Below are positions 9,228 to 17,729 of a stretch of DNA of 64,000 nt, one piece after another. Origin of the DNA: Alphaproteobacteria bacterium. GTDB taxonomy: Bacteria; Pseudomonadota; Alphaproteobacteria; UBA6615. Where the stretch lies: positions 124,001-188,000 of the forward strand of contig JBDXCV010000003.1 in assembly GCA_039980135.1 (NCBI GenBank). Reading direction: 5' to 3'. Made by a program: the position numbers and the translations under genes. A model generated the notes under the pieces. The model had not been told where the DNA came from. It saw only the letters and a program-made list of their open reading frames with translations, and did no database searches. Every line of letters begins with the position of its first letter. Position 1 is the stretch's first letter.

Positions 9228-9776
9228 TCAGTCCTCGTCCGGCACTTGGTGCGGGCGGGCGAGACCAACCTTGTCCGCGCCTTCGGGGGTTATCAAGCCG
9301 TCCCGCACCCAGCCATTTTGTTCCATTTCACGCCACTCGTGGGACGGCACGGACACGAAACCGCGCACGTGGCGCGGGCTGACAACCACGGGATCGTCCA
9401 GCGTGATCGAACCTTCGGCTTCCGCACCCTGTGCCATCCAGGTGAGCGCCAGCGCCTGAACGCGCGAGACATTTCCGGACAAACCGCCGGCGGCATGCGC
9501 ACACATCAGCGGAACTGACGACACCCAGAACTGATCACGGGAAACGCTTTCCGCCAGTTCGAGATCGGCACGCGCGCGGGCCTCATCGTCGAACGCCCGG
9601 ATTGTTTCGACATCGCCTTCGGCGGATTTGCGGCACAACACCCACAAGTTCTCGGCAGGCGCGGTCGCGGCGCCGGCAGCCGGAGGCTCCGGCAGCTGCT
9701 CCGTCGGGCCATCCTTACCCGTCGCCGACCCCGATCCCTCGAAATCGGCGAATTCGTCACTCGACATGATCGCCAT
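9228..9776 (-). CDS. Hypothetical protein, unrecognised
   Basis: A 182-residue protein with no family I can name. The first 45 residues are Gly/Pro/Ala/Glu-rich and probably disordered. The remaining part has alternating beta/helix character (NLWVLCRKSAEGDVETI, DDEARARADLELAESVS, QFWVSSVPLMCAHAAGG, VQALALTWMAQGAE) and ends in an acidic tail. No signal peptide or membrane helix is seen. A second in-frame ATG (MSSDEF, 9767) is an equally good start. It is convergent with the PAS kinase, and codon use fits its neighbours, so it is probably a real gene. Confidence 0.55.
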   Translation of the reverse strand: MAIMSSDEFADFEGSGSATGKDGPTEQLPEPPAAGAATAPAENLWVLCRKSAEGDVETIRAFDDEARARADLELAESVSRDQFWVSSVPLMCAHAAGGLSGNVSRVQALALTWMAQGAEAEGSITLDDPVVVSPRHVRGFVSVPSHEWREMEQNGWVRDGLITPEGADKVGLARPHQVPDED

Positions 9777-9995
9777 GCGCGTTGCGAACCAAGTGCTTGG
9801 TGTGAAATTCCCCAGACAATCTTGTTTCCGGCATGCCTTCCAGCTTGCCCGGATACAATACTCGCCTCCCCATACTTGCGCTTATGCTAATGCAGCCTGC
9901 GGCACGAGTCAGCAACCGGCGAGGAAACTACCCACATTTTATCCACACAGCTTGTCCGGGCTTTATGCACCGTCTCCACCACCGAATATGGTGGA

Positions 9996-10685
9996 TCAGG
10001 CGGCAGCGTCCTCGGCCTGTTTGTTCATGGATTCAAACTCGCTCGGCCAATGATCGGCCAGCCAGCGCAGGTAATCTCCCATTTTCGCCGGGTCGAGATG
10101 CAGGGAAGACTGGATCTTGTCGATCTCCGGCTGCTCCTCGATCAACACGTCAAGGGAATCATTGATCCGGTTGATCATGTTGAACATCGCGCAGAGCATT
10201 GTGACCTCGACGATCTCACCTTCGGTGAAGTTCGCCCGCAGCCGGTCATAAACTTCCGTGTTCTTCTGGGCGGTGTTGCGGGTCATGTTCTCGGCCCACA
10301 GGATCGCCGCCTTCTCGCGCTCGTTGAACAGATCCGACGTCAGATAGTCGTCCGACGACATGGCGATGATCTGGTCATGGGTGATCCCCGCTGCCTGCCC
10401 GAGAGACGTGTTGTGGGCGTAGCAATAATCGCAGCCATTGGTATGGCTGGTCTTGATCACCACCATCTCCTTGAGTTTTCCGGTGATCCGGGTTCCCGGC
10501 CATTCGCGCTGGGCGGCCGCGTTGATCGGCAGGAGGAGCATCGCCAGGAATGGCGCGTTGGAGATCGTCCTGTAGAAATGCGGCACCCGGCCCAGCAGAG
10601 CCGTGACGGCGCCATAGAATTCCTCGAACTCGCCATCGATGGCCTCGGGTTCGATCTTCTGAATGCGTCCTTGGGTACGCGACAT
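9996..10685 (-). CDS. Carboxymuconolactone decarboxylase / AhpD-like protein
   Basis: Cytoplasmic all-helical protein of 229 residues of the CMD/AhpD superfamily. The signature TSHTNGCDYCYAHNTSLGQAAG contains the redox pair of the CDYC motif and the following histidine (CxxCxxxH), as in alkylhydroperoxidase AhpD-like and peroxidase-related proteins. Its substrate is unknown. The start at 10685 is chosen because a strong GAGGAG ribosome site lies 9 bases upstream; an in-frame ATG at 10709 would place that site inside the coding region. It ends next to a 220-base intergenic gap with no visible gene. Confidence 0.85.
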   Translation of the reverse strand: MSRTQGRIQKIEPEAIDGEFEEFYGAVTALLGRVPHFYRTISNAPFLAMLLLPINAAAQREWPGTRITGKLKEMVVIKTSHTNGCDYCYAHNTSLGQAAGITHDQIIAMSSDDYLTSDLFNEREKAAILWAENMTRNTAQKNTEVYDRLRANFTEGEIVEVTMLCAMFNMINRINDSLDVLIEEQPEIDKIQSSLHLDPAKMGDYLRWLADHWPSEFESMNKQAEDAAA

Positions 10686-10808
10686 GGGCTTGGTCTCCTC
10701 GATCATCATGTTGTGCGTTTGCCTGACTTTATCTCGCCCGGCTCAAACAGCAATAGGGGCGGGCCGTGCGACCCGCCCCCGATACCGAATATCGGTCCCG
10801 CGTCGTGG

Positions 10809-11675
10809 CTAACGACGCCAGTTCGCGGACCGGATACGATAGGCCCCGGCGATGTTCAGCGGCAGGTTTTGCTCATACTGTGCCCAGCCGGCATATTTCG
10901 ACAGCTTGATCTCGGCCTGGGCCTGTTCGAGCGTCTTGCCGTCGGCAACGGCCTGACTCACGGCGGTCCACAGGTCTTCCATATACTCGCGGAACGCCGT
11001 GACATCGGCGGGCACACCCATCTTGCCATGGCCCGGCGCGAGCTTGTCGAAGTCCATCCCCTCGACCCGGCGAATGGACTCGATCCAGTCGGGCAGCCAG
11101 GCATCGGGCAGATCGCGGAAGGCGACGGCCTGAATCGGTATAAAGTCCACCGCGAACAGCACACGCTGGGCCGGGAAGTTCATCACGATCGAATTGTCGG
11201 AATGGTTGCGGCCGACATATTTGAGTTCGACGGTCTGTCCGCCGAGGTTGAGGACCAACTCGTCCGAAAAGGTCAGCTCGGGCACCGCCGTGGGGCGCTT
11301 GGCCGCGATGATGGTGTCGCGCGCGTTCACATGGGACACCACGATCGCCGTATCGTCCCATACCTCCCCGCCGGAGATGTGATCGGCATGGTCATGGGAA
11401 TAGACGACGTAGCGGATTTCCTGGCCAAACCGCGTGCGGATCTCGTTCTCGAGCCAGGTCGCGGCGGCGGCGTTGATCGGGTCGGTTGCGACCACCCCGT
11501 CGTCGGTCACCAGGAACACGGACGTGTGGAAGTTGTTCTGGAAGCGGTAAAGGTTGGGTCCGATCTCGGTGATCGAACGTTTGGCCTCCTGCTGGGCGCC
11601 CGCCTGGGGTGCGAGCAGCCCGGTGAGCATCATGGTCGCGGCGGCGATCGCCGCAAAGCTGCGTAGTCTGATCAT
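10809..11675 (-). CDS. Secreted metallo-beta-lactamase-fold hydrolase
   Basis: Exported metal-dependent hydrolase of 288 residues. The signal peptide MIRLRSFAAIAAATMMLTG... ends near AGAQ, so the enzyme is periplasmic. The zinc motif SHDHADHISGG (HxHxDH) and a later NHSDNS and APGHG provide the other metal ligands. The overall layout resembles periplasmic MBL proteins of the subclass B3/quinoprotein-relay type rather than glyoxalase II. A GGAG ribosome site 8-11 bases ahead of 11675 sets the start; the frame runs open further upstream. It is divergent from the acyl carrier protein gene and reads away from that cluster. Confidence 0.85.
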   Translation of the reverse strand: MIRLRSFAAIAAATMMLTGLLAPQAGAQQEAKRSITEIGPNLYRFQNNFHTSVFLVTDDGVVATDPINAAAATWLENEIRTRFGQEIRYVVYSHDHADHISGGEVWDDTAIVVSHVNARDTIIAAKRPTAVPELTFSDELVLNLGGQTVELKYVGRNHSDNSIVMNFPAQRVLFAVDFIPIQAVAFRDLPDAWLPDWIESIRRVEGMDFDKLAPGHGKMGVPADVTAFREYMEDLWTAVSQAVADGKTLEQAQAEIKLSKYAGWAQYEQNLPLNIAGAYRIRSANWRR

Positions 11676-11911
11676 CTCTGGTTTCTCCACGAATTCGATG
11701 AACGAAAAGCGGCAAGCAGGCCGACAAACTCTAGGCTGCAAATGTGCATGCTCACCAGCGTGAAACCGGTACCGGTGTTTCACGATTTGGCGAGCGACGG
11801 ACCTTGCGGCACCTGTCACAAGGCAAGCTGTTCGTTGCGAACGCAGGGGCTTCGGTGATATCAGCAACGGGACCACGCTGACGCGGGGATACCCGCGCAA
11901 AAGGAGTTTCC

Positions 11912-12208
11912 ATGAGCCAGAGCCTGGACATCATTTACGCCGCCATCGAAGAGCTGAACGCACAGATCGCCGACGAGGGCCCCGGTGCCCAGTTGATCGC
12001 GAAGGCCGAGGACACGCGCCTGTTCGGCGCCGATGACGGCATGGACTCGCTGCAGCTGGTGAACCTGATCGTCGCCATCGAGAACCACATCCAGGACGCG
12101 ACCGGGCAATCGGTGGTGCTGGTGGATGAATCCACCATGGGCCTCGACAACAACCCGTTCGAGACGGTGGGCAGTCTGGCCGCCCATCTCGACGGCGTGC
12201 TCGCCTAG
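11912..12208 (+). CDS. Stand-alone acyl carrier protein
   Basis: Small acidic carrier protein of 98 residues, first gene of a six-gene acyl cluster. The phosphopantetheine attachment serine is S46 in DDGMDSLQLVNLIVAIE, matching the DSL motif, followed by the recognition helix and third helix (NPFETVGSLAAHL). It is longer than FabD-cycle ACP and diverges in the region after the serine helix (ATGQSVVLVDESTMG), so it is probably dedicated to this pathway and not the housekeeping AcpP. AAAAGGAG lies just upstream of the start. No phosphopantetheinyl transferase is encoded nearby. Confidence 0.82.
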   Translation: MSQSLDIIYAAIEELNAQIADEGPGAQLIAKAEDTRLFGADDGMDSLQLVNLIVAIENHIQDATGQSVVLVDESTMGLDNNPFETVGSLAAHLDGVLA

Positions 12209-12232
12209 AACAGACATCCTGAACAAGGGCCT

Positions 12233-12940
12233 ATGAGCGATCCGCGCACCATCCTGATTACCGGCGCCAGCCGCAGCATCGGTCGGGCGCTCGCCGCCCA
12301 CTACGCCGAAGCCGGACACAGGGTTTTCGGCTGCGCGCGCGGCGACAGCGACTTCGCCCACGCCAACTACACCCATTTCACAGCCGACATCACCGACGAG
12401 ACAGCCGTTCGCGAGATCTTCAAGGCCATCGTCGATGCGGGCGCGACAGTCGACCTCCTGATCAACAACGCCGGCATCACCCAGGCCAAACCTGCCCTGC
12501 TGACCGGCAGCGTGGAGGCCGCCGGTATCCTCGAGACCAACCTGGTCGGCGCGTTCACCGTGCTGCGCGAGGCGATCAAGCACATGATGCGCGCCAAGCA
12601 CGGCCGGATCGTCAATTTCTCATCAATCAACGTGCCGCTCGGCAGCGTCGGCGGGGCGCTTTACAATGCGTCCAAGGCCGGGCTCGAAAATCTCGGCCAC
12701 ACGCTGGCGCGCGAGATCGGCAAGGCCGACATCACCATCAATACGGTCGGGCTGTCGCTGGTGGCGGGCTCGGGCATGGCCGAGGGGCTGTCGGAGAAGG
12801 GCATGGCCGACAAGCAGGCTGAGCTGATCAGGCCTGGCCTGATCGGCATCGACGAGATCGCCCATGTGGTCGACTTCTTCGCATCGGACGCCGCCGGGAA
12901 CATCACCAACCAGATCGTCTATTTCGGCGGGGTCCGGTGA
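12233..12940 (+). CDS. SDR-family reductase, likely 3-oxoacyl-ACP reductase (FabG-like)
   Basis: NAD(P)H-dependent short-chain dehydrogenase of 235 residues. The cofactor motif is TGASRSIGRALA (residues 10-21), followed by NNAG (79-82 region) and the catalytic set with Ser in NFSSIN and Y144/K148 (LYNASKAG). Context after an ACP gene and before a KAS III gene points to reduction of a beta-ketoacyl-ACP; the substrate is inference. Its stop overlaps the next gene as GTGA, so translation is coupled. A 24-base gap separates it from the ACP gene. Confidence 0.87.
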   Translation: MSDPRTILITGASRSIGRALAAHYAEAGHRVFGCARGDSDFAHANYTHFTADITDETAVREIFKAIVDAGATVDLLINNAGITQAKPALLTGSVEAAGILETNLVGAFTVLREAIKHMMRAKHGRIVNFSSINVPLGSVGGALYNASKAGLENLGHTLAREIGKADITINTVGLSLVAGSGMAEGLSEKGMADKQAELIRPGLIGIDEIAHVVDFFASDAAGNITNQIVYFGGVR

Positions 12941-13590
12941 GCGGTACGCCAACAGAACCCAACGAACAGGTTGCGGTCGAGCAGTTTACGAACGGCATCT
13001 ACCGCGAGAACGCCTACATCGTCGGCGGCAACGAAGACGCGTTGATCATCGACCCGGGCAGCGATGCCGACGCGATCGCCGCCATCGTCGACATGCATAT
13101 CTGGACGCCCGTGGCGATCATCGCCACCCATGCGCATTTCGACCATGTGGGCGCGGTCGCCGAGCTGATCGCGGCATACAACATCCCGTTCTATCTGCAC
13201 CGGGCCGACGAGGCGCTGCTCAAGCGGATGAACCTCTACAAGATGGTGATCGATCCCGGTGAGGCCCTGAAAGTGCCCGAGATCACCCACGACCTGGCCG
13301 AGACCCAAAGCCCGCTCAGGATCGCGAAATTCGAAATCGAGGTGCTGCCCTCGCCGGGCCACACACCGGGCGGGGTGTGCTTCCGGATCAACAATGAACT
13401 CTTCACCGGCGACACGGTGCTGCCGGCCGGGGTCGGGCGGATCGACCTGCCCGGCGGCGACGGTCCCGCACTGGAAAAATCCGTGGCGATGCTCCACACC
13501 CTGCCCCGCGACCTGACGGCCCATCCGGGCCATGGCGCGTCCATGGCGCTGGGCGACCTGCTCGACAATCTGCAGGAGGTGGCGTCATGA
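12937..13590 (+). CDS. Metallo-beta-lactamase-fold hydrolase in acyl cluster
   Basis: Cytoplasmic MBL-fold enzyme of 217 residues resembling YcbL/glyoxalase II-type hydrolases. Zinc ligands are H65, H67, D69 and H70 (THAHFDH), then the histidine of PSPGHTPGG, the aspartate of FTGDTVLP and the histidine of AHPGHG. Glyoxalase II-type enzymes cleave thioesters, so in this setting it may release the acyl group from the carrier protein; that role is inference. It starts at GTG 12937, overlapping the SDR stop, and its own stop overlaps the KAS III start (ATGA). Confidence 0.86.
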   Translation: MSGTPTEPNEQVAVEQFTNGIYRENAYIVGGNEDALIIDPGSDADAIAAIVDMHIWTPVAIIATHAHFDHVGAVAELIAAYNIPFYLHRADEALLKRMNLYKMVIDPGEALKVPEITHDLAETQSPLRIAKFEIEVLPSPGHTPGGVCFRINNELFTGDTVLPAGVGRIDLPGGDGPALEKSVAMLHTLPRDLTAHPGHGASMALGDLLDNLQEVAS

Positions 13591-14603
13591 ATGTCGCCAT
13601 CGGCGATATCGGCGTCGCCCTGCCCGAGACCATCGTCAGCAATGACGATCTGCGCGCGGCCTATCCCGACTGGGACTTCGACCGGCTGGAGGCGCGCACG
13701 GGTGTGATGTCGCGGCACATCGCGGCCCCCGACGAGACGGCGCTGGACCTGGCGTTCGCCGCCTGCGAACGCCTCAAGGAAACCGGCGCGCTGGATGACA
13801 ACAGCGGCATCGACGGACTGCTGTTCTGTACCGAGACCCCGGACTACCCGATCCCGTCCAACGCCTGCCTGCTGCACGGCAAGCTGGGCCTGCCCCAGAA
13901 TGTGATGGGGCTGGATATCAACATGGGCTGCTCGGGCTACCTCTACGCACTGCAGGTGGCCCAGAGCCTGATCAAGAGCGGGGCGGCCAGCCGGATTTTG
14001 CTCGCCACCGCCGACACGTATTCCAGGCTGATCAACCCCGGAGACCGCTCGACGCGGGTGCTGTTCGGCGATGGGGCGGCGGTCTCGGTGATTGCATCTT
14101 CGGACGATGACCAGTCAGGCATCATTGATCTGAACCTCGGCTCCGAGGGCAAGTTCTATGACCGCTTCATGGTGCCCGCCGGCGGCACACGCTGGCCGCT
14201 GGACGAGTCCAGCCATGTCGAGACGGAAGACAAATCCGGAAACATCCGCACACCCGCCGACATCACCATGGAGGGATTCCAGGTGCTGTCCTTCTTCAAC
14301 AGCGTGATTCCCAAGCATGTACGCGGACTTCTCGAGGCGAACGATCACACGCTCGACGATGTGGATCTGTTCGTGTTCCACCAGGCGAGCCAGGTGGCGC
14401 TGGATTCCATCGCCAAGGCGCTGAAGATCCCCGACGGGAAGCTCGTCAACAAGCTGGCGACCACCGGCAACCTGGTCTCGGCCTCGGTCCCCGTGGCGCT
14501 GGCGATGGCCCGCGACGACGGCACGGCGAAACCCGGCCAGCTCGCCATCCTGTGCGGCTTCGGTGTCGGCCTGTCCTGGGGCTCCGCCCTGGTGCGGCTT
14601 TAG
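13587..14603 (+). CDS. 3-oxoacyl-ACP synthase III (KAS III) family enzyme
   Basis: Decarboxylating condensing enzyme of the FabH family, 338 residues. The catalytic triad is intact: C115 (NMGCSGYLYAL), H265 (FVFHQAS) and N295 (ATTGNLVSAS). The tail GLSWGSALVRL is the usual FabH ending. FabH starts fatty-acid synthesis from acyl-CoA, but in small clusters relatives perform single condensations or acyl transfers onto unusual acceptors. Overlap with the MBL gene (ATGA) and only 10 bases to the next gene show a tight operon. It differs from a housekeeping fabH, which normally sits with plsX. Confidence 0.9.
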   Translation: MNVAIGDIGVALPETIVSNDDLRAAYPDWDFDRLEARTGVMSRHIAAPDETALDLAFAACERLKETGALDDNSGIDGLLFCTETPDYPIPSNACLLHGKLGLPQNVMGLDINMGCSGYLYALQVAQSLIKSGAASRILLATADTYSRLINPGDRSTRVLFGDGAAVSVIASSDDDQSGIIDLNLGSEGKFYDRFMVPAGGTRWPLDESSHVETEDKSGNIRTPADITMEGFQVLSFFNSVIPKHVRGLLEANDHTLDDVDLFVFHQASQVALDSIAKALKIPDGKLVNKLATTGNLVSASVPVALAMARDDGTAKPGQLAILCGFGVGLSWGSALVRL

Positions 14604-14613
14604 GATCGGGCCC

Positions 14614-15987
14614 ATGAGCGAGAGCGATATCGGGTTCTTCATCGAGCGCTTCCGGGAAAATCCGGACGGCCCGGCGATCGCCTGGCGCGACGACGTCTAC
14701 ACCTATGGCTGGCTCGCGGATGACATCGCCGCGCGCCGCGTCGCGCTGGAGGCCGAGGGCGTCGGCCCCGGCGACGTGGTGGTGCTGTGCAGCGAATATG
14801 CACCCGCCGCCGCCTCGCTCCTGCTGGCGCTGATTGACCTGAAGGCCATCGTCGTGCCGCTGCTGCCGCTCACCCGCGAACGCAATCCGGCGCTGATCGA
14901 CATGGTCGACCCGTCGATGATCATCGACGTGAGCGATGGCACCGAGGTCGCGTTCACCGAGCGCGAATCCGGCGAGCCCCACGAGCTTTACAAGCAACTC
15001 ATCGCCGCGAACGCGCCGGGGCTGGTGCTGTTCACGTCAGGCTCTACCGGCCTGCCGAAGGGCGTGGTGCATGATTTCGCCAAGCTACTCGAGAAATTCA
15101 AGACCCGGCGCGGCGCGCTGATCACCCTCAATCTGCTCATGTTCGATCACTGGGGCGGGCTCAACACCCTGCTGCACGCGCTGGCGAATGACTGCCTGGT
15201 GGTGCTGACCGAGCGCCAGAGCCCCGAATATGTCTGCGAGCTGATCGAGCGCCACCGGATCGAGCTGCTGCCGGGCACGCCGTCCTTCCTGAACATGCTG
15301 CTGATCAGCCGCGCCTATGAGGGCCGCGACCTGACGAGTCTTCGATTGATAAGCTACGGCGCCGAGCCGATGCCGGATTCGACGCTCAAGGACCTGCGCA
15401 AGATCTTCCCCAATGTGGAGGCGCGCCAGACCTACGGCCTGATCGAGCTGGGGGTGTTGCGCGCCAAGTCCCGCTCGAGCGACAGTTTGTGGGTGAAGAT
15501 CGGCGGCGACGGCTACGACGTGCGCGTGGTCGACGACATGCTGGAGATCAAGGCGGACTCGGCCATGCTCGGCTACCTCAACGCGCCGAGCCCGTTCACT
15601 CAAGACGGCTATTTTATGACCGGCGACCGGGTCGAGGTGGACGGCGATTACTTCCGCATCCTGGGCCGCGATTCCGAGCTTATCAACGTGGGTGGACAGA
15701 AGGTCTATCCGGCCGAGGTCGAGACGGTGCTGCTGGAGTCCCCCGACGTGGAAGACGCGGTGGTGTTCAAGGAAAAGAACCCGATCATGGGCCAGATCGT
15801 CTGCGCCAACATTCACCGGACGGACTCAGAAGATACGCCGGCGGAAGTGCGCGCGCGGATCAAGAAGTTCTGCACCGAGCGGCTCGACGACTTCAAGGTG
15901 CCGGTGAAAATCAGCTTCACGACCGAGCCCCTGCACTCCGACCGCTTGAAACGCCTGCACATCCAGCCCACATCCTCTAAAGACTGA
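14614..15987 (+). CDS. AMP-forming acyl ligase (ANL superfamily)
   Basis: Adenylating enzyme of 457 residues. The P-loop motif LFTSGSTGLPKG lies near residues 139-150, followed by YGLIELGVL (A5), GYFMTGDRV (A7) and the C-terminal swivel region FRILGRDSELINVGGQKVYP. The usual TGK of motif A10 is replaced by SDRLKRLH, which still offers a lysine. It probably activates a carboxylic acid and loads it on CoA or on the ACP of this cluster. It is shorter than acyl-CoA synthetases (often over 500 residues). The start at 14614 gives MSESDIGFF; the frame is open upstream only through the KAS III end. Confidence 0.85.
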   Translation: MSESDIGFFIERFRENPDGPAIAWRDDVYTYGWLADDIAARRVALEAEGVGPGDVVVLCSEYAPAAASLLLALIDLKAIVVPLLPLTRERNPALIDMVDPSMIIDVSDGTEVAFTERESGEPHELYKQLIAANAPGLVLFTSGSTGLPKGVVHDFAKLLEKFKTRRGALITLNLLMFDHWGGLNTLLHALANDCLVVLTERQSPEYVCELIERHRIELLPGTPSFLNMLLISRAYEGRDLTSLRLISYGAEPMPDSTLKDLRKIFPNVEARQTYGLIELGVLRAKSRSSDSLWVKIGGDGYDVRVVDDMLEIKADSAMLGYLNAPSPFTQDGYFMTGDRVEVDGDYFRILGRDSELINVGGQKVYPAEVETVLLESPDVEDAVVFKEKNPIMGQIVCANIHRTDSEDTPAEVRARIKKFCTERLDDFKVPVKISFTTEPLHSDRLKRLHIQPTSSKD

Positions 15988-16047
15988 TATTGTCACAGGC
16001 CCCGGTGTGGACACGGTACGCTGAGCGCAAAACTTTCGATTGAACTG

Positions 16048-17169
16048 TTGACCCTGGGCGATCTGCGCGCCGGAAACGATGCGCGGTTCACCGCCCCCGA
16101 AATCGACCCCGACGGGCTCGCCGCCCTGCCGCCCCACAAGCGCGATGCCTTCCTCGCCAATCCGCTGGGCCGCGACGACGACCCGGCCCAGCTGATCGGA
16201 ATCGCGGATGGCCCGGAGGGCAAAAAGGTTGTCGGCAAGGTCGATCTGTTCCCCGGCGAGATCACGGTTTGCGGCACGCCGACCCGGGTGATCTGGGGTT
16301 CGGCGCTGGGGGTGCCCGAGAAACACCGGGCGACGGGCATCGGCCTGCTGCTGGCCATGAAGATGCAGACGGTTGGCCCGTGGATGGGCGCGTTCGGCGT
16401 CTCCCAGGTCGCGCTGCCGCTCTATACCAATCTGCGCTGGGCCAATCTGTCCCTGCCCCGCTATGTGCTGATCCGCCGGAGCCGGCGTTTCCTCGCGGCC
16501 TATCTCCGCTCCGAAATCCTGGCCGCGCTCCTCGCGCCTCTCGCCGACCTGCTGTTCGCAGCGCAGCGGGCCTGGCTGCGCGCGGCCGAACCGGTGCACC
16601 GGCGCTACGAGCTGGTGCCTGCCGCGGAAATGCCGGCACACCTCGCCGACCGCTTCATCACGCCGGACGGTGCGGCGCCCCATCGCTCCCCCGCCTGGAT
16701 CAACTGGCTGCTGTCGAGCGAGTTCAACGATGTGCCGAGCCGCCGGACGAACCTCTGGCTGGTGCGCCACCGGAGCACCGGGGAAATCTCCGGCTATATC
16801 CTGACCAAGCAGCGCCATTTCGACGACGTGACCCAGCGCCATGTGAAGGATGTGACCATTGCCTCGGTGCAGGACTGGATGAGCTTCGACCAGGCAGACC
16901 TGCCCGACCATCAACTGCTGGCGCTGACGATCACCGCCGCGACCCATCCCCGCAATCCGTCAAAGCCGTGCCGGAAAGCCGACGCAGTCGAGATCTGCAC
17001 CGCCGTCCCGACCTGTCAGCGCCTGCTGCGGCGCTGGGGCCTGCTGCGGCTGGGGCATCTGAACTTCCTGTGCAAGCCGGCGCGGAATTCGGAACTGGCT
17101 GACGACAAATGGAAAGACCCGGCGAACTGGCGGCTCAAGCCCTCAGAGGGCGACAATTTCTGGACTTAG
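16048..17169 (+). CDS. GNAT-like acyltransferase ending the acyl cluster
   Basis: Unusual 373-residue protein with GNAT motif A at residues 88-108 (LGVPEKHRATGIGLLLAMKM), the acyl-CoA/pantetheine-binding loop. Elements of a second half (SGYILTKQRHF, ADAVEICTAVPTCQRLLRRWGLL) suggest a double or extended fold. It could transfer the acyl product from the carrier to an amine or hydroxyl acceptor, as FeeM-type N-acyl synthases do; that is inference. No ATG or GTG is available in frame after the stop at 15985, so TTG at 16048 (or CTG at 16021) must be used. It is the last gene of the operon-like run. Confidence 0.65.
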   Translation: MTLGDLRAGNDARFTAPEIDPDGLAALPPHKRDAFLANPLGRDDDPAQLIGIADGPEGKKVVGKVDLFPGEITVCGTPTRVIWGSALGVPEKHRATGIGLLLAMKMQTVGPWMGAFGVSQVALPLYTNLRWANLSLPRYVLIRRSRRFLAAYLRSEILAALLAPLADLLFAAQRAWLRAAEPVHRRYELVPAAEMPAHLADRFITPDGAAPHRSPAWINWLLSSEFNDVPSRRTNLWLVRHRSTGEISGYILTKQRHFDDVTQRHVKDVTIASVQDWMSFDQADLPDHQLLALTITAATHPRNPSKPCRKADAVEICTAVPTCQRLLRRWGLLRLGHLNFLCKPARNSELADDKWKDPANWRLKPSEGDNFWT

Positions 17170-17188
17170 AAGATACAGTGACATCGGC

Positions 17189-17491
17189 CTACAACTGGCG
17201 TGACGCGAGAATGCGGTCATGCAGAACACGGACGACCTCAATGCCGTAATCCGTCGCCCGGTAGTAAATGACATGACGAATGACCGGATACCGCCTGTAG
17301 CCCTGCCGAATGGCATCACAGGCGCTGCCCGCGTTCGGGTTCCGGGCCAGGAACGCGAAGGCTTCGATCAGGTCGTCGATATAGCTTTCCGTCTGCTGTG
17401 CACCCCACTGGGGCAGCGAGTAGAGCCAAACCGCCTCCATATCTTCCCGGGCTTTTGGGGAAAGGCGATACTCAGCCTTTTCGTGCGCCAT
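17189..17491 (-). CDS. parE: ParE/RelE-family toxin
   Basis: Toxin of a type II toxin-antitoxin pair, 100 residues. The pattern YRLSPKAREDMEAVWLYSLPQWG, AFAFLARNPNAGSACD, GYRRYPVIRHVIYYRATDYGIEVVRVLHDR is the standard ParE fold; ParE proteins inhibit DNA gyrase. It follows the antitoxin with a 20-base overlap, so it is translated after it. The pair sits between the acyl cluster and polA as a typical accessory insertion. Confidence 0.9.
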   Translation of the reverse strand: MAHEKAEYRLSPKAREDMEAVWLYSLPQWGAQQTESYIDDLIEAFAFLARNPNAGSACDAIRQGYRRYPVIRHVIYYRATDYGIEVVRVLHDRILASRQL

Positions 17492-17729
17492 GCTTTTTCA
17501 GCATTTCCCGTTTGAACCGGTCACCGTCGAACGGGAGCGGCTTGCCGCTCCGCTCACCTTCGACAAGCGCGGCACGGATTGCCTCGATATCGGCCTGGCT
17601 GGCCTGATCCCGGCGGATCAGATCGCGGATATACTCACTGTCGTTGGTGTACTCACCCGCCGCAATCTGCCCCTTGATCCAGCTGTCCTGCTGGTCGGTT
17701 ACGGTGATGGTCTTGCGTGTGGTGCCCAT
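17472..17729 (-). CDS. parD: ParD-family antitoxin
   Basis: Antitoxin of 85 residues with an N-terminal ribbon-helix-helix DNA-binding domain (RKTITVTDQQDSWIKGQI, NDSEYIRDLIRRD) and a C-terminal toxin-neutralising tail (DGDRFKREMLKKHG). It is expected to repress its own promoter in the roughly 100 bases upstream (17730-17830), where AT-rich DNA is present. It overlaps parE by 20 bases. Confidence 0.9.
   Translation of the reverse strand: MGTTRKTITVTDQQDSWIKGQIAAGEYTNDSEYIRDLIRRDQASQADIEAIRAALVEGERSGKPLPFDGDRFKREMLKKHGARKG

Follow-up and report, generated by a model that had tools for sequence, protein, structure and literature searches.

In the biosynthesis of mupirocin, the adenylation protein MupQ, the reductase MupS and the acyl carrier protein (ACP) MacpD make a 3-hydroxypropionate starter from malonyl-CoA, while the side chain of thiomarinol starts from a 4-hydroxybutanoyl group (PMC10098928). 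A second kind of system is found in Pseudomonas syringae, where the β-ketoacyl-ACP synthase III (KAS III) VioS, the reductase VioR, an ACP and VioB are the proposed makers of N-(3-hydroxy-1-oxobutyl)-viosamine, and where the flagellin glycan of a vioR mutant is rhamnose only (PMC3927599). Another sugar-modification neighbourhood that contains an ACP appears in PMC4000134. The subject here is a six-gene cluster with likenesses to both kinds of system. It lies at 11912-17169 in a stretch of 64,000 nucleotides (the window; contig JBDXCV010000003.1 of assembly GCA_039980135.1) from an alphaproteobacterium that is probably marine.

What does this cluster do? We hold with modest confidence that it is a self-contained priming cassette, with an inserted pair of genes for a metallo-β-lactamase (MBL) protein and a KAS III, that makes a single short hydroxyacyl group to be attached to an amine, possibly that of an amino sugar. 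Judged from sequence, the parts come from known families (GNAT tentatively so) and their logic has precedents, while the combination appears to be found almost nowhere else. An earlier sequence-only reading could not relate the set to a named pathway. That view has to be revised, because kin were found in the MupQ/TmlQ-type priming cassette and in the KAS III proteins of flagellin and polysaccharide loci.

The six genes and related priming cassettes

The open reading frames (ORFs) place all six genes on the forward strand, in the order ACP, short-chain dehydrogenase/reductase (SDR), MBL-fold hydrolase, KAS III, adenylating ligase and GNAT-like protein. The sequence-only reading had described six co-directional genes with GTGA and ATGA overlaps, and this layout was confirmed: the GTGA joins the SDR and MBL genes, the ATGA joins the MBL and KAS III genes, the ACP and SDR genes are 24 bases apart, the KAS III and ligase genes 10 bases, and 33 bases separate the ligase stop from the CTG of the GNAT-like frame. 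The catalytic residues claimed for the ACP and KAS III are present, and the family assignments of the SDR, KAS III, ligase and MBL proteins are strongly supported by both Pfam and NCBIfam.

The dedicated ACP (11912..12208, 98 aa) carries S46 in a DSL motif. It is divergent: its best NCBIfam match is at E 0.002, the window protein has no Pfam match at E 0.01, and an orthologue in locus L011 matches PP-binding at E 0.013, under the curated cut-off. The SDR reductase (12233..12940; PF00106, 8e-39) has the residues S130, Y144 and K148. The MBL-fold hydrolase (12937..13590; PF00753, 1.3e-24) is GloB/GloC-like, with an HxHxDH motif that begins at H65. The KAS III (13587..14603; PF08545/PF08541) has the C115-H265-N295 triad, and the adenylating ligase (14614..15987; PF00501, 8.9e-37) belongs to a MupQ/TmlQ-like group. 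The last gene, for a GNAT-like acyltransferase candidate of ~382 aa, runs from 16021 (CTG) or 16048 (TTG) to 17169.

The ligase and SDR connect the cluster with known priming cassettes. The window ligase is 38% identical to the ligase of the thiomarinol plasmid pTML1 and up to 49% identical to other cassette ligases (MupQ itself is not in the comparison). The motif QT-Y/F-G-x-x-E and a C-terminal R-x-K occur in all 17 well-framed ligases of the group, with K or R next in 16, a count that leaves out the misframed L059 row and two far outgroups, L083 and L015; two outgroup ligases carry SGK or NGK where the group has R-x-K. In the final ligase tree, which includes a frame-corrected L059, omits the outgroups L083 and L015, and like all the trees does not contain the ligases of L045 and L055, the window protein groups with those of L041, L054, L056b, L057 and L058 at only 80/90. 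The SDR falls in a clade of cassette SDRs that has 12 rows (100/99), or 15 rows (100/100) once more loci are added. It is separate from the FabG clade, and the pTML1 SDR sits in a different clade (100/100), in a comparison from which MupS itself is absent. The SDR tree, firmly, and the ligase tree, weakly, thus place the window cassette on a branch apart from those linked to polyketide synthases (PKS).

What the cluster has in common with MupQ/MupS/MacpD and TmlQ/TmlS/TacpD is a ligase of the same group, with the same motifs, alongside an SDR and a dedicated ACP. In pTML1 the order is ligase-SDR-ACP, followed by a PKS gene; we take these cassette genes to be those named TmlQ, TmlS and TacpD. 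Succinyl-CoA is the thiomarinol substrate. The window differs in that the order is reversed, the SDR is outside the pTML1 SDR clade, MBL and KAS III genes are inserted, and the cluster has its own acyltransferase candidate. No MmpF-like KS-AT or PKS partner was recognised among the ORFs around the cluster, by eye and with a partial Pfam scan.

Sixteen further loci with ligases of the group were examined, four from plasmids and twelve from genomes. The plasmids were chosen from ten listed ligase matches at 38% or more; the remaining six are additional records from Bradyrhizobium or Rhizobium. The SDR gene directly adjoins the ligase gene in 15 of the 16 loci; the exception is L042, where the two genes lie apart within one operon. 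Fifteen loci have an ACP in the block, although weakly in L043 (E 5e-4); the locus without one, L060, stops at a contig edge. Among the same 16, an MBL gene was found only in L042 and a KAS III gene only in L042 and L059. The latter reads ACP-SDR-ligase-KAS III-ACP, with a weak GNAT match, FdtA and a DegT aminotransferase.

The closest arrangement is that of L042, from a genome (G525) of another family in the same class. On its contig, at 9252-17271 on the minus strand, genes for GNAT, ACP, SDR, MBL, KAS III, MaoC/SDR, FkbH, ACP and ligase follow each other; the MaoC part was read by eye, and the GNAT is PseH-related with a match below cut-off. ACP-SDR-MBL-KAS III are thus in the window order, the MBL protein holds the same position, and the ligase and GNAT belong to the same operon. 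The extra genes (MaoC/SDR, FkbH and second ACP) and the presence of rmlA on the contig set L042 apart. Identities to the window are 38% for ACP, 38% for SDR, 32% for MBL, 26% for KAS III and 43% for ligase. L042 joins the window genus only weakly in the SDR tree (86/55) and the MBL tree (85/88, where its row is on a long branch), and its KAS III is on the FabH side of the KAS III tree (100/99). L042 looks like a fuller relative of the cluster; the order is the same, and shared descent of the whole block is not established by these comparisons.

Conservation, loss and rarity of the block

The block is carried at 76-98% identity by two relatives, the Rhodospirillaceae metagenome-assembled genome SI072_bin63 (locus L012) and the metagenome-assembled genome casp40-mb.141 (L011, which ends after the ligase at the contig end); they were counted once each, as G021 and G023. 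Identity is 96-98% for the ACP. Pairwise Nei-Gojobori ratios of non-synonymous to synonymous change (dN/dS) are 0.06-0.07 for the ACP, 0.08-0.09 for the ligase, 0.15-0.20 for the SDR, 0.18 for KAS III, 0.28-0.36 for the MBL protein and 0.35 for the GNAT-like protein, with polA at ~0.12 as a yardstick. Purifying selection acts on all six genes, and the ACP and ligase are the most constrained. Because the order is conserved in two relatives and dN/dS is 0.06-0.36 in all six genes, the block is not a chance assembly.

How old is the block, and how stable? The ligase is present in three of the seven genomes of the genus, and at the polA site the block is intact in two of the seven (G000 and G021). 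G023 has five genes and then the contig end; no polA was found there, and the block was placed by its other flank. Two genomes keep a remnant at the same site beside polA: in G020 (L088, 8756-8878) only the 5′ end of the ACP gene remains, with a stop, and in G019 (L066, 8972-9187) only the 3′ end of the GNAT-like gene, with stops. There is no trace of the block in G018, where the CMD gene lies ~180 bases from polA in opposite orientation, or at the polA site of G022, where other sequence is in place. Completeness of G018, G020 and G023 is 79-87%, and the sites in G018 and G020 were read directly. The remnants in G019 and G020 are opposite ends of the block, as is expected from the loss of one ancestral unit. 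The block behaves as one old, dispensable unit that has been lost repeatedly in the genus.

Both flanks, the side with the CMD and MBL-hydrolase genes and the side with polA, are syntenic in relatives, and the possibility of a recent mobile island was rejected for this reason. The upstream flank (9999-11900, minus strand) encodes a CMD/peroxidase-related protein and a SoxH-like MBL hydrolase that is distinct from the MBL protein of the cluster.

Beyond the genus the genes are rare. The sequence-only reading had allowed that homologues might be scattered in other genomes without a conserved neighbourhood; instead, the order is kept in the relatives of the genus, while the full six-gene set was seen in this one genus only and the likeness of L042 is partial. 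In the order, 3 of 24 genomes match the GNAT-like protein (the G019 remnant is one of the 3); in the class, 2 of 385 match it strongly (the window and G021) and two more at E 1e-4. The MBL protein has an 82% match in G021 and matches of 33-41% in four other genomes. KAS III was found at E 1e-62 or better in 3 of 398 genomes of the phylum, window included. Ligases of the group occur in 6 of the 398 phylum genomes (E 1e-70) and in 8 of 369 genomes in the class of G740 (E 1e-60), with G740 in both sets.

Plasmid searches with the GNAT-like protein (at E 1) and with the L042 MBL protein (at E 1e-20) gave nothing, and the ACP gave seven weak matches; with the SDR they gave 41 records at E 1e-25, and the 15 listed are all FabG-like actinobacterial genes. 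No relative of the GNAT-like protein was found in the viral contigs that were scanned with it. In the literature search, from which subscription journals were mostly absent, we recognised no paper that describes ACP-SDR-ligase cassettes with MBL and KAS III genes, nor a description of the cassette in work on hydroxyacyl O-antigen genes with an ACP, on loci combining a deacetylase with an ACP, on tetronate or perosamine, or on capsule KAS III.

KAS III and the comparison with fatty acid metabolism

Is the KAS III simply the FabH of this genome? In a tree of 23 rows, which omits L017 (one of nine loci in the genome-contig scan) and the broken second KAS III stretch of L010, the three cluster proteins are sister to KAS III from Deinococcus loci with non-ribosomal peptide synthetase (NRPS) genes (98/98), and not to the pair from flagellin loci. 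FabH proteins with plsX neighbours, that of the window genome included, form a separate clade (100/99). The concern that the cluster might hold the only fabH of the genome is removed by a second fabH, read by eye, beside plsX.

This bears on the idea that the cluster consists of housekeeping or duplicated genes of fatty acid initiation. KAS III, SDR and ACP are indeed of the kinds used in type II fatty acid synthesis; however, the genome also has an SDR over the TIGR01830 cut-off, the cluster proteins are outside the FabH and FabG clades, and among the seven members of the genus the block has left no trace in two and has decayed in two. A housekeeping FabH/FabG identity was rejected on the trees and the separate genes, and the idea as a whole is very improbable.

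A rather less improbable proposal, though still a doubtful one, is scavenging: the ligase and SDR would serve the ACP and reload acids freed by the MBL protein, the KAS III would only prime an altered fatty acid and the GNAT-like gene would be a passenger. Some ligases of the superfamily are acyl-ACP synthetases (PMC9386255), and dN/dS is highest for the GNAT-like and MBL genes. Against this, the window ligase shares just 23% identity with the AasR-type ligase of E. coli BL21 and up to 49% with cassette ligases, its KAS III neighbour is outside the FabH clade, and the GNAT-like gene is intact in both block genomes whose contig reaches it (G000 and G021).

The comparison with BL21 also concerns sphingolipid (ceramide) synthesis, which likewise uses an ACP, a ligase, a reductase and an N-acyltransferase, and for which similar kinds of genes are present in Caulobacter and E. 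coli BL21 (PMC9386255; the BL21 locus). The window SDR and ACP, like its ligase, have no close likeness to their BL21 counterparts, neither BLAST nor hhalign matches the GNAT-like protein with YghO, and inspection by eye recognised no serine palmitoyltransferase within the cluster or next to it. A sphingolipid set was rejected on the BL21 and YghO comparisons, and there is hardly any chance that the cluster is one.

Relatives of the KAS III are found in several loci for surface structures. The window protein is 41% identical to a homologue on Burkholderia glumae pBGF3, which adjoins vioA near flagellin (8 of 387 plasmid records with KAS III matches were examined). The loci with relatives include the flagellin loci L010 and L063. 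In G669, DegT and flagellin genes lie within ~8 kb of the relative, and in G516 it adjoins SDR and polysaccharide deacetylase genes. The likeness to the P. syringae viosamine island consists of a KAS III, a reductase, an ACP and an acyltransferase, with 3-hydroxybutyryl proposed to be placed on an amino sugar. The window differs from the viosamine and flagellin loci by its extra ligase and MBL protein, and its SDR is not of the clade beside those KAS III proteins: the SDRs of L010, L018, L064 and L083 have a clade of their own (100/99) without the window SDR, in a comparison that did not include the P. syringae VioR. Neither vioA nor another nucleotide-sugar gene was recognised nearby, and no nucleotide-sugar aminotransferase within ~10 kb of the cluster, by eye and with a Pfam scan of some of the ORFs.

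A further parallel is the Parabacteroides polysaccharide locus L083, where five kinds of genes occur together (an acetyltransferase, two ACPs, an AMP-binding protein, a KAS III and an SDR) among genes for glycosyltransferases and GDP-sugars. By comparison with the window, the ligase of L083 lacks the motifs of the group, its KAS III is 35.5% identical and distant in the tree, and no MBL protein is annotated in the stretch.

The proposed acyl group and its acceptor

The sequence-only reading had suggested that one short acyl chain is built on the dedicated ACP and then transferred. This fits the evidence, whereas the substrate, product, acceptor and order of steps belong to a proposal. The gene content, residues, conservation, selection and co-occurrence given above are observations; for the substrates, the step order, the role of the MBL protein, the transferase activity and the acceptor, we infer the following. 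The phosphopantetheinyl transferase of the genome would arm S46 of the ACP; as the sequence-only reading stated, no such gene is in the cluster, and one ACPS-family match is found elsewhere in the genome. The ligase would then adenylate a small acid and tie it to the ACP; by analogy with MupQ, the substrate may be the free carboxylate of a dicarboxylyl-CoA such as malonyl-CoA. The KAS III would perform one decarboxylative condensation, so that the chain would grow by two carbons at most once. The SDR would reduce the thioester or the β-keto group to a hydroxyl, and the MBL protein, possibly an editing or releasing thioesterase, would hydrolyse stalled or wrong thioesters. Finally, the GNAT-like protein would move the hydroxyacyl group to an amine, most likely an amino sugar of a surface glycan made elsewhere. 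The roles of the ligase, SDR, MBL and GNAT-like proteins form the least certain group of steps.

The amino-sugar acceptor is favoured because of the contexts of related cassettes. Once L031-L033, which have only a PKS-linked cassette, are omitted, 13 loci can be counted, and since their neighbours were partly scanned the counts are minima. An acyltransferase over the Pfam cut-off is nearby in at least seven: hexapeptide proteins in L034, L041 and L054, Acyl_transf_3 also in L041, GNAT in L043 and L044, Acetyltransf_6 in L057 (~1.3 kb away) and a member of the aminoglycoside-NAT family in L058. At least five have a glycan gene, namely a deacetylase in L054, L056 and L057, FdtA and DegT in L059 and rmlA in L042. 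In L054, L056, L057 and L064, genes for polysaccharide deacetylases adjoin ACP-SDR-ligase or KAS III genes. These recurrent deacetylases would fit the removal of an N-acetyl group followed by re-acylation with a custom group. Polysaccharide deacetylase matches number eight in the genome, with none in the window.

Which protein would carry out the transfer? An orthologue of the GNAT-like protein matches Acetyltransf_9 at E 0.07, below cut-off (GNAT profiles range over 0.07-0.12), and a profile of three rows matches AAC(2') structures at E 0.0065. A weak BLASTP match (E 0.008) links it with the candidate of L043, and the motif RATGIG resembles the acyl-CoA motif of GNAT proteins. The gene lacks an ATG start. 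L012 retains the upstream frame LSAKLSIE, and in the window no ATG, GTG or TTG occurs in frame from the ligase stop to CTG 16021. Because the conserved reading frame begins there in the window and L012, this CTG is probably where translation begins in both, with TTG 16048 as the alternative. The two halves of the protein have no mutual similarity.

Several results weigh against the proposed hydroxyacyl transfer to an amino sugar. The GNAT assignment is weak, the weakest of the six: the window protein has no Pfam match at E 5 and no NCBIfam match at E 0.01. The best of ten candidates from related loci in hhalign comparisons, that of L056, reached only probability 28% and E 0.00065; four unrelated window proteins used as controls gave E 0.09-0.46, and five of the ten candidates (L034, L044, L057, L059 and L064) were no better than these. 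AlphaFold models were unusable, with pLDDT of 34 (three rows) and 36 (four rows). Since the SDR is outside the pTML1 SDR clade, reduction of a thioester cannot be assumed, and since MBL and KAS III genes are so infrequent among the 16 further loci, the cassette gives no guide to what they do. The proposal also does not explain how a CoA-primed KAS III would use the product of the ligase. The nearest KAS III relatives beyond the genus are in Deinococcus NRPS loci and not in sugar loci. No sugar gene was recognised adjoining the cluster, and the polysaccharide locus of the window lies at least 13 kb downstream, beyond polA.

The last two points agree with a different idea, namely that the cluster belongs to a small-molecule pathway in which the GNAT-like protein joins the acyl group to an amino acid, amine or peptide and so gives a diffusible N-acyl metabolite. 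The Deinococcus loci are NRPS-like and encode adenylation or condensation functions together with a thioester reductase, an aminotransferase, a GNAT and an ACP; PKS genes adjoin the cassettes in L031-L033 and one of the pair in L056. Conversely, none of the six genes encodes an NRPS, PKS, exporter or regulator, the window SDR lies outside the clade of PKS-cassette SDRs (100/100) and the ligase leans the same way, though only at 80/90, and the Deinococcus GNATs have no clear similarity to the window protein. We regard a small-molecule product as unlikely, but worth keeping in view.

An amino-sugar acceptor remains our preference. A more specific version, in which MupQ-like priming and a single KAS III condensation, free of any PKS, lengthen a hydroxyacyl or diacid-derived primer once, with proofreading by the MBL protein and delivery to an unlinked surface polysaccharide or amine, is at present speculative and on the improbable side. 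If this two-stage route exists, it would provide a custom acyl group outside any pathway that we could name. The cluster links the priming cassettes of antibiotic PKS with the KAS III/ACP sets by which amino sugars are decorated. Should the preferred reading hold, MupQ-type ligase cassettes would serve generally to make unusual short acyl groups, with the antibiotic versions as a single branch, and wherever a cassette adjoins a glycan locus a specific N-acyl group would be predicted.

The polysaccharide locus extends over ~30000-60000 and includes an HldE-like kinase/nucleotidyltransferase (30366), glycosyltransferases (from 38872), a sugar transferase (53176), a Wzz-type tyrosine kinase (56823) and an asparagine-synthase-like protein; its presence in the window is no proof of a link to the cluster. 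Between the cluster and polA, a ParE toxin/ParD antitoxin pair (PF05016, PF03693) is encoded on the minus strand at 17189-17729.

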